A DNA stretch of 64,000 nt, from NCBI RefSeq assembly GCF_014267175.1, contig NZ_JACMTR010000002.1, forward strand, positions 5,047,501 through 5,111,500, read 5' to 3'. A program made the translations under genes and the position numbers. Position 1 is the stretch's first letter, and each line of letters starts with the position of its first letter. A model generated the notes under the pieces. It was not told the DNA's origin. It saw nothing but the letters and a program-made list of their open reading frames with translations, and made no database searches. The stretch comes from Pseudonocardia sp. C8. Lineage in GTDB: Bacteria; Actinomycetota; Actinomycetes; Mycobacteriales; Pseudonocardiaceae. Shown here one piece after another: positions 57,184-64,000 of the stretch.

Positions 57184-58299
57184 ATGGGCAGCGGCCGGGC
57201 CGGGGACTGGGCGATCGCCGGTGCTACGGCGGCGGTCGTGCTGGCCACCGAGCTGTCCCCCGGGCAGCACGTCCCGTCGGCGCTCGACCCGCTGGGCTAC
57301 TCCCTGCTCGCCGCCTCCGGCCTGGTGCTGGTCGCGCGGCGCCGGTTCCCGATCACCACGCTCGCGGTGGCCGGGGCGTGCGTGCTGACCTACCAGGCTC
57401 TCGGGTTCACGGCCCCGGCGGTCGCGTTCCTGGTCGCGGTGTACGCCGCCGTGCGGGCAGGGCACCACGTCGCGACCGCCGCGGTGTCGCTGGTCATGCT
57501 GGCCGCCGTGCCGCTGGCACTCCTGGCCGCCGCGGACGGCCGGCTGCTGGGCGAGGCGCTGCTGCAGTCCCGCGACGTCCTGCCGCTGGCCTGGCTGATC
57601 GCGGCCGCCGCGGCGGGGGAAGCGCTGCGGCAGGCCGAGCGCCGCGCCGACGAGGCCGAACGCACCCGCGAGGAGGCCGCACGGCGCAGCGCCGACGAGG
57701 AGCGCCTGCACATCGCGCGGGAGCTGCACGACTCGCTCACCCATCAGATCTCGGTCATCAAGGTGCAGGCCGAGGCAGCCGTCCACCTGGCCCGCAAGCG
57801 GGGCGAGCAGGTGCCCGAGTCCCTACTCGCGATCCGCGAGGCCGGTCGCGAGGCGGCCCGGGAGCTCCGCGCGACCCTGGAGACCCTGCGCGACGACGAC
57901 CGCGATCCCGTGCGCGGCCTCGACCGGGTCGCGGACCTGGTGCAGCGGGTCCGGACGACCGGGCTGGACGCCACACTGACGGTCGGGGGCCGCCCGCGTG
58001 CGCTGCCGGCCGCCGTCGACCGCACCGGGTACCGGATCGTGCAGGAGTCGCTGACCAACATCGCCCGGCACGCCGGCGCGGGTACCGCGTCGGTCCGGAT
58101 CGACTACCGGCCCGACGCCCTGGTCATCCGGGTCGACGACGACGGCCGGGCCACCGCGGACACCGCCCCGGTCCCCGGCGTGGGCCTGCTCGGGATGCGC
58201 GAACGCGTCACCGCCCTCGGCGGCCACCTGCAGGCCGCGCCCCGCGACGAGGGCGGGTTCACCGTCCGGGCCGAGCTGCCCGCGGAGCAACCGTCGTGA
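57184..58299 (+). CDS. sensor histidine kinase, NarL/HisKA_3 family
   Basis: 371 residues. Five hydrophobic segments before residue 145 (for example SLLAASGLVLVARRR; VTAAVSLVMLAAVPLALLAAA-like run; LPLAWLIAAAAAG) form the sensor. A coiled stretch (QAERRADEAERTREEAARRS) leads to the dimerisation box IARELHDSLTHQISVI with phospho-acceptor His182. The HATPase domain has TGYRIVQESLTNIARHAGAG (N box), VDDDGRAT (G1) and GLLGMRERVTALGG (G2). The GTGA junction couples it to its response regulator. The signal is unknown. Confidence 0.93.
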   Translation: MGSGRAGDWAIAGATAAVVLATELSPGQHVPSALDPLGYSLLAASGLVLVARRRFPITTLAVAGACVLTYQALGFTAPAVAFLVAVYAAVRAGHHVATAAVSLVMLAAVPLALLAAADGRLLGEALLQSRDVLPLAWLIAAAAAGEALRQAERRADEAERTREEAARRSADEERLHIARELHDSLTHQISVIKVQAEAAVHLARKRGEQVPESLLAIREAGREAARELRATLETLRDDDRDPVRGLDRVADLVQRVRTTGLDATLTVGGRPRALPAAVDRTGYRIVQESLTNIARHAGAGTASVRIDYRPDALVIRVDDDGRATADTAPVPGVGLLGMRERVTALGGHLQAAPRDEGGFTVRAELPAEQPS

Positions 58300-58958
58300 T
58301 CCGGGTGCTGCTCGCCGACGACCAGCCGCTCATCCGCAGCGGTTTCCGCGCGCTCCTCGAGATCGAGGACGACATCGAGGTGGTGGCCGAGGCAGCGGAC
58401 GGCCGCGAGGCCGTGGCGCGGGCCGCCGAGCACCGGCCCGACATCGCGCTCGTCGACGTCCAGATGCCCGTCATGGACGGGATCGAGGCCACCCGGCGGA
58501 TCGCCGCGGACCCGGCGCTGACCGGCGTGCATGTCGTCATCCTGACGAATTACGGTCTCGACGAGTACGTCTTCCACGCGTTGCGCGCCGGCGCGGCCGG
58601 GTTCCTCGTCAAGGACGTCCAGCCGGACGACTTCGTGCACGCCGTCCGCGTCGCCGCCCGCGGGGACGCGCTGCTCGCGCCGTCGATCACCCGCACGCTG
58701 ATCGACCGCTACGTCTCCCAGCCGCTCCGTCCCGCACCTGGCACCGGCCTGTCCGAGCTGACCCGGCGGGAGCGGGAGGCCGTCGCGCTGGTCGCGCACG
58801 GCCTGTCCAACGACGAGATCGCCGCACGCATGGTGATCAGCCCGCTGACCGCGAAGACGCACGTCAACCGGGCCATGGCCAAGGTGCACGCCCGCGACCG
58901 CGCGCAGCTCGTCGTGCTGGCCTACGAGTCCGGCCTGGTGTCCCGGCGCGCGCCGTGA
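58296..58958 (+). CDS. LuxR/NarL-family response regulator
   Basis: 220 residues from the GTG at 58296. Receiver: acidic pair Asp8-Asp9, phospho-acceptor Asp54 (ALVDVQMPVMDG), Thr84 (ILTN), Lys106 (GFLVKDV). Output: LuxR helix-turn-helix LTRREREAVALVAHGLSNDEIAARMVISPLTAKTHVNRAMAKVHARDRAQLVVLAYESGLV. It is phosphorylated by the preceding kinase. The kinase-regulator pair faces the DUF6223 gene across a 197-bp gap. Confidence 0.95.
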   Translation: MIRVLLADDQPLIRSGFRALLEIEDDIEVVAEAADGREAVARAAEHRPDIALVDVQMPVMDGIEATRRIAADPALTGVHVVILTNYGLDEYVFHALRAGAAGFLVKDVQPDDFVHAVRVAARGDALLAPSITRTLIDRYVSQPLRPAPGTGLSELTRREREAVALVAHGLSNDEIAARMVISPLTAKTHVNRAMAKVHARDRAQLVVLAYESGLVSRRAP

Positions 58959-59798
58959 CTACCCGATCTCGGTGACCAGGATCCGCGCCGAGCGCCGCTG
59001 CTGCACGCTCACCAGCTGATCGACGCCCTCGAACTCGTTGCAGAGCAGGAACAGGTGCCGGCCCTCCGGGCCGCCCACGGCGCACGAGAAGCAGGGCAGG
59101 TCGGTCTCGACCCGGTGCGTGATCTCGCCGCCGTCGAGGACGCGCACGCAGGCGCCGGCCGGGGCGTCGGGGTCACCGGTGTGCGCCGCGACGTCCGCGG
59201 TCTGGGTCCAGATCGCCGGCCCGTCGACGCAGATGCCGTCCGGGCCGAGCCCGTCGGCCCAGCTCCGCCGGTTGCCGAGCGTGCCGTCCGGGGCGAGGTC
59301 GAACGCGGTGAGCCGCCCGGCGAACGACTCGGCGACGACCAGGGTGGCGCCGTCGGGGGTGACCACCATCCCGTTCGGGAAGTCGATGTCCCCGGCGACC
59401 TGCACGGCCGTGCCGTCCTCGGCGATCCGGCGGATCCAGCCCGGCTCGGGCGCCCCGCCACCCACGAAGTCGAAGTCGGCGCCGTTGACGAACACGTGCC
59501 CCCGCGGGTCGACGACGAGCTCGTTGCCCCCTTGCGGGTTCCAGGTCCGGTGGCCGCCGGGCTCGTGCACGACGGTCTCCGGCCCGGAGGTGAGCAGGCG
59601 CCCGTCGGGCAGCCAGTCGATCGCCCAGCCCATCTGCGGCGGGCCGGGCGCGACGACCTCGGCGTTGCCGTCCAGGTCGACGGCGACGACCTCGCCGGCA
59701 CCCCAGTGGGCGAACCACAGGCGTCCGTCGTGCCAGCGGGCGGACTCGACCATCGCGAGCCCGGTGAGCAGGGTCCGGGGCGGGGGCAGGTGTTCCAT
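58959..59798 (-). CDS. SMP-30/gluconolactonase/LRE-family beta-propeller protein
   Basis: 279 residues, GAGGAGTG before the ATG. MVESARWHDGRLWFAHWGAGEVVAVDLDG opens the propeller with the metal-binding Glu. GNELVVDPRGHVFVNGADFDF, DFPNGMVVTPDGATLVVAES (N-x-M) and GLGPDGICVDG (D-x-I) carry the usual Asn and Asp ligands of a calcium-dependent lactonase. It probably hydrolyses a sugar or other lactone. It lies 56 bases after the Cys-His-Asn gene on the same strand, and its stop abuts the response regulator stop. Confidence 0.85.
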   Translation of the reverse strand: MEHLPPPRTLLTGLAMVESARWHDGRLWFAHWGAGEVVAVDLDGNAEVVAPGPPQMGWAIDWLPDGRLLTSGPETVVHEPGGHRTWNPQGGNELVVDPRGHVFVNGADFDFVGGGAPEPGWIRRIAEDGTAVQVAGDIDFPNGMVVTPDGATLVVAESFAGRLTAFDLAPDGTLGNRRSWADGLGPDGICVDGPAIWTQTADVAAHTGDPDAPAGACVRVLDGGEITHRVETDLPCFSCAVGGPEGRHLFLLCNEFEGVDQLVSVQQRRSARILVTEIG

Positions 59799-59854
59799 CG
59801 GCACTCCTCGAGGACGGGGTCGTCGCTGTGGTCGACCGTCCGCGAGCGCGGAAC

Positions 59855-61903
59855 TCACCGGACGGGGCCGCTCCCGGTGTCCGGGGTGGAAGGCTCGCGG
59901 GACGCCTGGAGCCCGCCGGCGGGCAGCCGGTCGGCCCCCCAGCTCCGCTCGATGTAGCCGACGATCCGCGCGATGTCCTCGTCCGGCACCCGGTCCGGAT
60001 GTCCCCGCTCGAGCGGGTCGACGTGGAAGATGTAGAGCCGCGACGCGAACTGGTCGAACGGCAGGGACGCCTCGCCGAAGCGCTCCCCGTGGCCCGCCGT
60101 CGAGACGACGACACCGTCGCCCCAGTCCTGCCCGCTGTCGTTGTTGGGGTTGTAGAAGTACACCCGCATCACGTCCTGCGGGTCCGGGGCGACCCGCAGG
60201 ATCGTGATCGCGTGCCAGCCGACGTAGCGGGCGGCGCTGTCGGTGACCGCGATGCCGGCCGGCTGCGGGTGGATCAGGGGCTGCCCCCCGTTGTACGACG
60301 GGTGGTAGCCGGCGTGGAACTGCCGCAGGAAGTCGTCGAGGTCGACCAGGTTCCCGGTCTCGACGTCGACGTCGATGTGGAACCCGCGGGCCGCCCACCA
60401 GCCGTGGAACTCCGGGTTCACCCACCGGTGCGGGTCCCCGGGCCGGCCGGCGCACCGGCGTCCCATCTCGACGTAGATCCGGTCCAGGTGCGGCACGACG
60501 ACGAGCGACACCGGGTCGAGGTCGATCGGCAGCGTCTGCGCGACCCCCGCCGAGGTCTCCTGCGAGGAGATCCGCTGCCCCTCGAAGTGCATGATGATCT
60601 CGTCGTCCCGGGCCGCCCAGACGACCATCTGCAGCAGGTAGTCCGGGTCGTTGTAGGCCCACATCGACAGCGCGCGGGCCGCCTGGCAGGTGGGGTTGTC
60701 GCCCTGCCCGATCCCCAGGGGCTGGCCGAGCATCGCGAGCACGCCGGCCAGCAGCCGGACCTCCGGCCCCGGCTCGTCACCGAACGCCGCCACCAGCCGT
60801 TCCCGGGCCGCGGGTGACAGGTCGAGCGCGATCTGGCGCCACAGCGACGGGACGACCGGCGGTTCGTAGAGGATGCCCCGGTCGAGCAGCAGGGCGAGCC
60901 CGTAGATGCACTGGGCGGTCTGCGGGGTCACCGCCTTCTCGATCAGCCGGTGCACGAGGTCCCGGTAGCGGAGCAGGCAGTTCTTGCCGGTGTCGGAGAG
61001 GCCGAGCGCCTCGGCGACCAGGTAGTCGCTCTCGTGCCGGAGGAACTGCAGCAGCTCCGCGTGGTACGGCGAGACCAGCCCGGTGTCGTGCATCGCCCGG
61101 GCGAACCCGGAGGCCTCGTACTGCAGGCCGCCGGTGTCCATCGCCTCCAGCCGGGTCCGGAACACGTCGAGCCCGGGGTCGTCGCGGCAGGCCTCGGTGG
61201 TCCCGAACAGGGCCGTGATCAGCCGGTCCAGGCCGTGGCCGGACGACAGCTCGACGTCCGGGTCGCCGCGCCACACCGACAGCCGGGTGATCAACGATGT
61301 GACCTGGTCCACCTGGATGGGGCGCTGGCGCAGGATCCGCCAGATCTCCTCGACGAGCTTGTCCCCGACGACGTCGTATCCCACCTCGTCGGCGATGTGT
61401 CGGAACAGGTCCCGGATCAGCTGGGCGGTCCGGCCCTGCCGGGTCCGCTCCGCCTCGGTGGGCGGGGCGAACAGCAGCTCCAGGTTCATCGCCAGCACCT
61501 GGGACAGGAACTGGCGCGCGTCCTCGGCCGAGATCGCCGGGTGCTCGTACTCCCCGAGCGCGACGGCGAGCATCCGCAGCTCGCTCGTCGCCTCCATCAC
61601 GACGGTGTCCGGGTCACCGCTGTGCAGGCCGGGCCCGACGAACGCCGGGACGAGGATGTCCGGGGAGGCCCAGTCCGTCCCGAGGAACAGGCCGGCCTCC
61701 TCCAGCGTCCGGGCCCGGGCCTGGACCGCGGAGGCGCCGCCCGGCTGCAGCAGGACCCGCCGCAGCTGCTCGAGGACCCGCCGCAGCTTCGTCGTCTTGC
61801 CGAAGTCGGCGGTCCGGTCCAGGTCCCGGGTGGCGTCGTCGAGCGAGGCCAGGCGCTTGTCCAGCACCGAGGCGCAACTCGCGGCGTCGGCGGTCGGTTT
61901 CAC
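59855..61903 (-). CDS. unrecognised 682-residue protein with papain-like Cys-His-Asn pattern
   Basis: GTG at 61903 behind GAGGGA; a GTG at 61957 is possible. The N-terminal 380 residues are mostly helical (for example TTKLRRVLEQLRRVLL, EVGYDVVGDKLVEEIWRIL), with no membrane segment or signal peptide. The C-terminal part has GQGDNPTCQAARALSMWAYND (Cys406 at a helix start), GWHAITILRVAP (His564) and VYFYNPNNDSGQDWGDG (Asn585, Asp593). This order and context match a papain/transglutaminase-like fold: a nucleophilic Cys helix, then His and Asn/Asp strands. I know no named family. It lies between an ATP-grasp gene and an SMP-30 gene on one strand. Confidence 0.6.
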   Translation of the reverse strand: MKPTADAASCASVLDKRLASLDDATRDLDRTADFGKTTKLRRVLEQLRRVLLQPGGASAVQARARTLEEAGLFLGTDWASPDILVPAFVGPGLHSGDPDTVVMEATSELRMLAVALGEYEHPAISAEDARQFLSQVLAMNLELLFAPPTEAERTRQGRTAQLIRDLFRHIADEVGYDVVGDKLVEEIWRILRQRPIQVDQVTSLITRLSVWRGDPDVELSSGHGLDRLITALFGTTEACRDDPGLDVFRTRLEAMDTGGLQYEASGFARAMHDTGLVSPYHAELLQFLRHESDYLVAEALGLSDTGKNCLLRYRDLVHRLIEKAVTPQTAQCIYGLALLLDRGILYEPPVVPSLWRQIALDLSPAARERLVAAFGDEPGPEVRLLAGVLAMLGQPLGIGQGDNPTCQAARALSMWAYNDPDYLLQMVVWAARDDEIIMHFEGQRISSQETSAGVAQTLPIDLDPVSLVVVPHLDRIYVEMGRRCAGRPGDPHRWVNPEFHGWWAARGFHIDVDVETGNLVDLDDFLRQFHAGYHPSYNGGQPLIHPQPAGIAVTDSAARYVGWHAITILRVAPDPQDVMRVYFYNPNNDSGQDWGDGVVVSTAGHGERFGEASLPFDQFASRLYIFHVDPLERGHPDRVPDEDIARIVGYIERSWGADRLPAGGLQASREPSTPDTGSGPVR

Positions 61904-61958
61904 AAAGCTTCCCTCGTTCGGGTCTCCGGACGTCCCGTGGTTCCCGCCGGCGGGCACC

Positions 61959-63200
61959 TCAGACGTAGAAGTCGAGTTCTTCCTGCTGCTTGAGCAGGTC
62001 GCGCATGCGGTACGGGTCGTCGCCGAAGAAGTACAGCAGGCCCCAGTGGGTGCCGAACGCGGTCCGCTTCGTGACCGTCTCCTCGAGCGGGGCCGAGAGG
62101 TCGTGCGACTCGTAGTAGTCGTCGTCCTCGGTCTGCTCCGGGATCTCCAGCTTGCTCACGACCCGACGGCGCGGGTACACGCCGAAACAGCCGGCGACCC
62201 CGGTCGCGTCCTCGACCTCGGTCGGGAAGAACGCGTCGATCTCCTCCTCGGTGGTCTTCGGGTCGAAGGCCAGCACGAGGGCCTGGTAGGCGTTGAAGCC
62301 GTACGCCCGCTCGAGCAGCTCGAAGACCTTGAAGCCCGGCGGCCGGTAGGCGACCTCGCCGAAGTACATCTCGCCGTCGGAGGTGACGAAGTACTCCGGG
62401 TGCACGAAACCGAAGTCGATGTCGAACGCCTTGATCAGCTTCTCGATCTGGGCGGTGATCTGCGGCCGGTACCGCTCGAGTTCCGGGGTCGCCGGCACGA
62501 ACACCGAGTACCCGAGCGTGACGTACTCGGAGATGTTGAGGAACTTGATCTTCCCCTTGTGGATCCAGGCCTCGACGGCGAATTCCCACCCGTCGAGGTG
62601 GGACTCCATCAGGACCGGGAACTCCTCGTCCGGGATCGTGTCGACCTCGTCCGGCGTCCGGATGATGCGGTGCCCGAGGCACCCGGCCTTGTCGAACGCC
62701 TTGAGATGGATCGGGTCGTTCGGGTCACCGTCGAGCTTGAGCAGGGTCTGGTTGACGCGCTTGAGGAACCGGATGACGTCGTCCCGGTCGTGGGCCTCCT
62801 CGAAGATCCCCACCCGGATACCGCCGAGCTGGGCCCGGCGCTTCATCAGCGCCTTGTCCCGCAGAAGCATGGCCTGGCCGAAGAGCCGCGGGTTGTCCAT
62901 CAGGACGGAGTTGATGGCGCCGGCCCACTCGACGGTCTCCTCGAACAGCGGGATCGCGACGTCGACACCCATCTCCTGCAGCGTCTCGGCGATCTCCATC
63001 GAGCGGTCGTTGAGCCGCTCGAAGTTCCACGGGACGTACGGGATGCCGTGTTCGGAACAGTATTTCTCGGCCCAGTCCGGCGCGACGACGACGTACCGCC
63101 GATCGAAGCGGTCGAGTGCCTCGACAGCGGGCAGGCTCCAGCCGAGCAGCGCGACGAACCCCTTTTCGGGATCCTTCCGGACCGGTTCCGGTCGAGGCAT
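61959..63200 (-). CDS. ATP-grasp ligase
   Basis: 413 residues from the ATG at 63200 with GGGAGG upstream. GFVALLGWSLPAVEALDRFDRRYVVVAPDW is a pre-ATP-grasp Rossmann start; KALMKRRAQLGG then FPVLMESHLDGWEFAVEAWIHKGKIKF (ATP-binding strands), and FGFVHPEYFVTSDGEMYFGEVAYRPPGF with the metal-binding Glu residues. It resembles the carboxylate-amine ligases that make amide or peptide bonds via acyl phosphates. The substrate is unknown. It is the first gene of a probable operon; the next gene starts 56 bases on. Confidence 0.85.
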   Translation of the reverse strand: MPRPEPVRKDPEKGFVALLGWSLPAVEALDRFDRRYVVVAPDWAEKYCSEHGIPYVPWNFERLNDRSMEIAETLQEMGVDVAIPLFEETVEWAGAINSVLMDNPRLFGQAMLLRDKALMKRRAQLGGIRVGIFEEAHDRDDVIRFLKRVNQTLLKLDGDPNDPIHLKAFDKAGCLGHRIIRTPDEVDTIPDEEFPVLMESHLDGWEFAVEAWIHKGKIKFLNISEYVTLGYSVFVPATPELERYRPQITAQIEKLIKAFDIDFGFVHPEYFVTSDGEMYFGEVAYRPPGFKVFELLERAYGFNAYQALVLAFDPKTTEEEIDAFFPTEVEDATGVAGCFGVYPRRRVVSKLEIPEQTEDDDYYESHDLSAPLEETVTKRTAFGTHWGLLYFFGDDPYRMRDLLKQQEELDFYV

Positions 63201-63276: not shown

Positions 63277-64000
63277 TCAGGCCTGCCCGGCGTGCTCCTC
63301 GGCGTAGGCGACGAGCCGCCGCAGCCGCCCGGCGACCGCGTCCTTGGACAGCGGTGGGTCCGCGAGCAGCCCCAGCCGGGACAGCGAGAGCGTCGTGTGC
63401 TCGACCCGCAGCATCCCGGCGGCACGCAGGTGCTCGGGCGCCTCCGGGCCCAGCACGTCGAGCGCCCACCGGACCCGGGCGGTCGTCCGGTCGGCCGCCT
63501 CGGCGGCCCGCCGGGAGTTGACCGACTCCAGGGTGGCGCTCGGCGCCGCCCGCGGTGCCGCCGTGCCCCCGCAGCGGCGCAGCGCGTCGGCGACGCCCGA
63601 GGCACCGGTCGCGCGCAGCAGCGTGTCCATGCTGTCCGGGTCCCGGACGAGCACCCGGTGCTCGGTCGCCGTCTCCTGGGCGGCCGCCAGCACCCCGAGC
63701 CCGCGGGCGGCTCCGACGAGCGCGAGGACGACCGCGGGCCCCGGACAGGGCACCTGGATCCGAACCCGCCCGGACGGGCGGACGATCCGGCCGCGGGCCA
63801 GCAGCGCACCGCGCCAGACCCCGGCGGCGACCGCCGCGCCACCCCCCACCACCGCCGGGGGCAGGCCGAGCACGGGCCGGCCGAGCCGGTCGACGAGCCC
63901 GGTCGCCCGTGCCAGGTCGGTGCCGTTGGCCGTCATGCGGAGCAGGTAGCGCAGCGGGCGGCCGTTCACGGCGACGACCTCGGCCCGGACCGGCATGCGG
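63277..64000 (-). CDS. whiA: DNA-binding protein WhiA, 5' end cut by the window edge
   Basis: About 241 residues are visible; WhiA is usually about 325, so some 85 N-terminal residues are missing. LRYLLRMTANGTDLARATGLVDRLGRPVLGLPP and CPGPAVVLALVGAARGLGVLAAA belong to the LAGLIDADG-like domain; the C-terminal helix-turn-helix is AAGMLRVEHTTLSLSRLGLLADPPLSKDAVAGRLRRLVAYAEEH. WhiA works with WhiB to start sporulation septation in Streptomyces and is universal in actinobacteria. The usual downstream neighbour gap is replaced here by the ATP-grasp cluster. Confidence 0.92.
   Translation of the reverse strand, partial: RMPVRAEVVAVNGRPLRYLLRMTANGTDLARATGLVDRLGRPVLGLPPAVVGGGAAVAAGVWRGALLARGRIVRPSGRVRIQVPCPGPAVVLALVGAARGLGVLAAAQETATEHRVLVRDPDSMDTLLRATGASGVADALRRCGGTAAPRAAPSATLESVNSRRAAEAADRTTARVRWALDVLGPEAPEHLRAAGMLRVEHTTLSLSRLGLLADPPLSKDAVAGRLRRLVAYAEEHAGQA

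Follow-up and report, generated by a model that had tools for sequence, protein, structure and literature searches.

Glutathionylspermidine synthetase/amidase is a single fused protein with a CHAP domain; one part of it makes an amide, and the papain-like part breaks the amide. Amidoligase systems, said to have been described by Iyer et al. in 2009, reportedly bring together ATP-grasp and transglutaminase-like proteins, of families other than those considered here. In a 64,000-nucleotide stretch of the Pseudonocardia sp. C8 genome (contig NZ_JACMTR010000002.1, positions 5,047,501 to 5,111,500; below, the window), a gene for an ATP-grasp protein resembling L-amino acid ligases was found directly upstream of a gene for a papain-like cysteine protein of 682 aa. 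Comparative analysis showed that these two genes are a self-contained two-gene module with a patchy spread across phyla, and that the module tracks ectC, the gene for ectoine synthase. The link of the pair to ectoine synthase is new.

In logic, the closest described system is glutathionylspermidine synthetase/amidase, which ties an ATP-dependent amide synthetase to a papain-like amide hydrolase; the available part of PMC10318531 names its CHAP part. The window pair appears to differ in having two genes, a putative calpain-like papain fold and an ATP-grasp protein of the L-amino-acid-ligase type. The amidoligase systems share with the window pair an ATP-grasp protein and, putatively, a papain-fold partner; the Pfam domains of those systems matched neither the 682-aa protein nor any of 74 relatives. 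By fold, the nearest known proteins are L-amino acid ligases and calpain-like proteases, and the genomic partner of the pair, sometimes adjacent, is ectABC(D) or a solitary ectC. The available part of a 2018 review of these genes (PMC5924519) named no ATP-grasp or papain-like gene among the ect genes, and a literature search covering titles, abstract openings and term counts, with most subscription journals outside it, found no paper linking such a gene to ectoine.

The ATP-grasp gene (61959..63200, minus strand) is the first gene of the module; it starts with ATG at 63200, its stop codon ends at 61959, and it encodes 413 aa. The papain-like gene (59855..61903, minus strand) follows after 55 bp, starts with GTG at 61903, and its stop codon ends at 59855. 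In tblastn, the ATP-grasp gene was directly upstream of the papain-like gene in all 80 other loci, with 83–95% identity; these loci were from named genomes and were the best 80 of at least 583 confirmed relatives, and in them the ATP-grasp gene ran into the end of the contig in L038 and lay in two reading frames in L065. The genus sample comprised 62 genomes. The papain-like gene was present in 21 of them, and the same 21 had an ATP-grasp gene of at least 86% identity; in seven others, the only ATP-grasp matches did not exceed 37%. In the phylum sample, 3 of 296 genomes, the window genome included, were carriers. In the Gammaproteobacteria, the ATP-grasp gene was found in 25 of 194 genomes of the order sample and 13 of 369 of the class sample. 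These two samples held 36 distinct ligase-carrying genomes, of which 33 had the papain-like gene next to one or more ATP-grasp copies or, in G810, one gene away; the partner was sought only around ATP-grasp matches, and within the flanks read it was not found in G530, G549 (second-type ATP-grasp only, see below) and G837. The first-pass annotation of the window had suggested a neighbourhood survey of this pairing, and the pairing proved near absolute.

In Actinomycetota, 81 loci were surveyed with a heuristic gene finder, and no conserved third gene emerged. Clusters outside the core occurred in 11 loci at most, and the first of them resembled an antisense frame; the survey was incomplete, as the core genes were picked in 73 of 81 and 68 of 81 loci, and tblastn found both everywhere. 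Most of the conserved neighbours named in Gammaproteobacteria had housekeeping or other general roles (mqo, acetolactate synthase, lysS, prfB, tlyA, an antiporter, an ABC ATPase). On gene length, mqo and als had first been taken for betaine genes, an assignment that was dropped once the genes were named.

The papain-like protein consisted of a helical N-terminal part (about residues 7–434) and a papain-like part (about 369–631) with Gln400, Cys406, His564 and Asn585. The last three were in the motifs GDNPTCQAA, GWHAITIL and YFYNPNND. Alignment of the window protein with 360 relatives (the best 120 from each of three match lists) showed that all four residues were kept in 360 of the 361 proteins, down to 40% identity, and that Asp replaced Asn in the sole exception. 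Because of this conservation, the Cys, His and Asn motifs are not due to chance; a loss of these residues in homologues, raised in the first-pass annotation as a sign against its reading, was confined to that one protein. The predicted structure had a mean pLDDT of 88.7 and helices from residue 7 to about 434, in agreement with the helical region placed earlier before the catalytic part. In the 683-aa translation, which starts one codon before the GTG and raises residue numbers by one, the model had Cys407 at the start of helix 407–419 and His565 within strand 561–574. Fold ranking of residues 369–631 gave calpain/papain cysteine proteases. Calpain and papain have the spacing Gln-Cys-His-Asn; in them, as in the 682-aa protein, a Gln precedes the Cys by six residues, and His and Asn-Pro follow in that order. 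The earlier view of the Cys-His-Asn protein as papain-like is thus supported by the fold ranking and by the spacing of its motifs.

Among the matches listed, the closest relatives were Pseudonocardia proteins with 90% identity. The family is large and unclassified, with at least 2717 relatives at E ≤ 0.001 among 8000 candidates scored. PADLOC models gave no family for both module proteins and one divergent relative at E up to 1, and an anti-phage defence system was rejected on the absence of a match for these three proteins. The papain-like relative P0261 has the database name 'Zorya protein ZorC EH domain-containing', which looks automatic in view of the same result.

In the ATP-grasp protein, the ATP-grasp fold spanned the entire chain. 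E269 and E282-x-A-x-R286 in the C-terminal half were invariant across 31 sequences, and the conserved acidic residues are presumably the Mg/ATP residues. RizA also has E-x-A-x-R, and BL00235 has E-x-G-x-R. The best ligase matches were small-molecule dipeptide ligases; the L-amino acid ligases BL00235, RizA and YwfE/BacD shared 12–16% identity with the window protein, whose gene, unlike theirs, is partnered with a papain-like gene. NCBIfam matches were weak and far under the cut-offs, and membership is claimed only for the ATP-grasp superfamily. One alternative is that the target of the pair is a protein, to which the ATP-grasp enzyme would attach an amino acid or an ectoine-related group; removal of the group would then fall to the papain-like enzyme with its helical part. 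This is unlikely, as the best ligase matches act on small molecules and the heuristic survey found no conserved third gene as a target.

A second-type ATP-grasp paralogue, with about 75% identity and mostly with an N-terminal extension, was found in several genomes. The papain-like gene was often not directly adjacent to it (L141–L145, L147, L150, L154); acetyltransferase (GNAT), deacetylase-like (HDAC-like) or ectC genes were sometimes nearby, and a BCCT transporter gene was near one copy (L142). Degraded second-type ATP-grasp fragments adjoin ectC in G543 (L202, 5392–5885).

Many hosts of the relatives were marine or salt-loving by name (Salinisphaera, Marinobacter, Halomonas, Roseospira, Caenispirillum salinarum, Haloechinothrix), and ectC (PF06339) was therefore tested. 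Hosts without such names, Nocardia, Rhodococcus and Amycolatopsis, were also frequent. Of 104 distinct genomes with the pair or the ligase, 102 had ectC. These numbers exclude genomes counted twice: four overlapped with the locus-derived set (three of them recognised because their ectC coordinates were identical), and two were shared by the gammaproteobacterial samples. In the order sample, ectC was found in 25 of 25 ligase carriers and 71 of 169 non-carriers (Fisher p 4e-9, ancestry uncorrected); in the class sample, it was found in 13 of 13 carriers and 57 of 369 genomes overall (Fisher p 8e-12, ancestry uncorrected). All 51 carriers reached via loci (47 Actinomycetota and 4 Gammaproteobacteria, L060 left out) had ectC, with a partial match in G958; Haloechinothrix halophila (L037) and Aidingimonas lacisalsi (L077) were among them. 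The ectC base rate in the phylum sample was 36 of 296 genomes, 30 of them above the cut-off.

In six loci ectC was within 2.5 kb of an ATP-grasp gene. The ATP-grasp gene concerned belonged to the pair in L148, L149, L169 and L005 (Saccharopolyspora soli) and was of the second type in L144 and L150; the gammaproteobacterial genomes concerned were G425, G361 and G810 for the pair and G530 and G436 for the second type. The gene order was ectC, ATP-grasp, papain-like in L148 and ATP-grasp, papain-like, ectC in L149; in L169 (G810), one strand held papain-like, HDAC-like, ATP-grasp and ectC in this order. By tblastn, a gene for an HDAC-like amidohydrolase adjoined the pair or the second-type ATP-grasp gene in L078, L137, L144, L150, L169, L172 and L173, and a GNAT gene did so in L144 and L150; the Pfam check covered the HDAC-like proteins of L137, L144 and L150 and both GNATs. 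The HDAC-like protein of L144 was closest to HDAC6/HDAH-type enzymes. The compound acted on is probably in the ectoine pathway or dependent on it, since the carriers have ectC and since some genomes have ectC, deacetylase-like and acetyltransferase genes alongside the module.

In the determinable genomes of the order sample, ectC was solitary in 12 of 24 carriers versus 2 of 68 non-carriers (p 5e-7). Solitary means that tblastn found no ectA or ectB nearby, in about 4.5–6 kb on each side where the contig allowed. The count leaves out G543 and G412, where ectC is at a contig end; 69 of the 71 ectC-bearing non-carriers were read, two with sub-threshold ectC matches being excluded, and G361, with the pair upstream of ectC and a contig end downstream, was scored as solitary. 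The neighbours of solitary ectC were varied and suggested no shared theme (CynX-type transporter, decarboxylase, amidase, EmrAB-type efflux, MnmE). Six loci (L184, L187, L192, L195, L196, L198) were syntenic, with a solitary ectC, a GTPase-like gene and a CynX-type transporter gene and no ectAB nearby; the GTPase-like gene was read from the sequence and had no NCBIfam match.

In a tree of 110 EctC rows, a 27-row clade, 26 rows of which came from carriers, held 11 of the 12 solitary rows and 6 of the 7 linked rows. The tree was given little weight because the labels did not group into a single clade, 136 and 143 out of 500 shuffles scored equally low, the columns were few, and 17 further carrier rows were outside this clade. 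Short or duplicate EctC pieces were left out of it.

Our tentative reading, held at somewhat less than even confidence, is that a ligase forming amides and a papain-like enzyme, either a hydrolase or a transferase, act on a compound of the ectoine pathway. Judging from the L-amino-acid-ligase fold, the ATP-grasp protein would use ATP to activate a carboxylate, which would then be joined to an amine. The 682-aa protein would hydrolyse or transfer the same kind of amide via Cys406, His564 and Asn585 and an acyl-enzyme, and its helical N-terminal part may position the substrate. From co-occurrence and linkage, the substrate may be diaminobutyrate, gamma-N-acetyl-diaminobutyrate, ectoine or hydroxyectoine, or alternatively a compound whose making requires ectoine synthase. 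The ligase and papain-fold steps draw on fold and residues, and we infer the substrate. A bolder version, which we consider improbable, is that the ATP-grasp protein replaces EctA: a carboxylic or amino acid would be ligated to the gamma-amine of diaminobutyrate, EctC, often solitary, would close the ring to give ectoine analogues with a new side group, and the papain-like protein and its deacetylase-like partner would trim or recycle the amide.

Several results weigh against an ectoine-pathway pair of this kind. For the papain-like protein, Foldseek on its own returned nothing significant (best E 0.24); the residues support a papain-like class, which the fold indicates less firmly. The ectC gene was usually distant, being near the pair in only one (L005) of the 80 named loci, and 12 of the 24 determinable order-sample carriers had a normal ectABC only. 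Within Pseudonocardia there was no ectC association, since 19 of 21 carriers and 36 of 41 non-carriers had the gene (p 0.56), and the pair-carrying genus genomes G314 and G347 had no ectC match. The samples hold related genomes, and the p-values therefore overstate the association, of which shared ancestry or habitat could be a partial cause. If habitat and ancestry were the only cause, the pair would serve some other useful function in such bacteria, for instance by forming a small peptide, altering the cell wall or supplying an osmolyte of an unrelated kind. The Pseudonocardia counts, the distance of most pairs from the ect genes and the many host names of marine or salt-loving kind, Nocardia, Rhodococcus and Amycolatopsis apart, speak for this explanation; the six close ectC linkages and the enrichment of solitary ectC are unexpected under habitat alone, and we consider it doubtful.

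In the window genome (6.24 Mb in two contigs), the pair is outside the ect cluster: ectABCD is about 840 kb away, with ectA, ectB and ectD named from translations and ectC by Pfam. Downstream of the papain-like gene, after 56 bp, is an SMP-30/gluconolactonase-like gene (58959..59798, minus strand; ATG at 59798, stop codon ending at 58959, 279 aa; PF08450, E 1e-21); its start codon and those of the module genes were assigned by reading of the sequence. The first-pass annotation had described three same-strand genes, with coordinates, gaps and motifs correct to within one base, and had taken them as one unit. Common strand and short gaps favour such a three-gene unit. However, none of the 80 other loci had an SMP-30-like gene next to the pair; in these loci the contig ended at the pair in L021 and less than 1 kb after it in L035 and L078; a third module member of this kind was rejected, and the three-gene unit is very improbable. 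A histidine kinase gene and a LuxR-type response regulator gene (57184-58958, plus strand) are convergent with the SMP-30-like gene. On the other side, 76 bp from the ATP-grasp gene, is a gene for a WhiA-like DNA-binding protein (63277..63999, minus strand; TIGR00647, 100.8 bits; PF02650), the 5' part of which is cut by the window end. As a partner it was rejected, because just three of the 80 other loci, L002–L004 from Pseudonocardia, had such a gene upstream of the pair (82%, 82% and 67% identity). This upstream gene is divergent, and spans 2778-4175 in L283.

Of the earlier interpretation, the papain-like protein and its pairing with the ATP-grasp gene stand and the SMP-30 membership falls; the ectC association had gone unnoticed, as had the ectC, deacetylase-like and acetyltransferase neighbours in some Gammaproteobacteria. 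Ectoine is a major salt-stress protectant, and the pair may be an undescribed branch of salt-stress chemistry. With the module also comes a family of papain-like proteins that is large and unclassified. In the available part of the 2018 review (PMC5924519), 145 of 582 ectC genes are solitary and their function is called unresolved. A module that tracks ectC, with solitary ectC in 12 of the 24 determinable carriers of the order sample, makes this question directly testable; if the ATP-grasp protein does replace EctA, solitary EctC proteins would gain a pathway.
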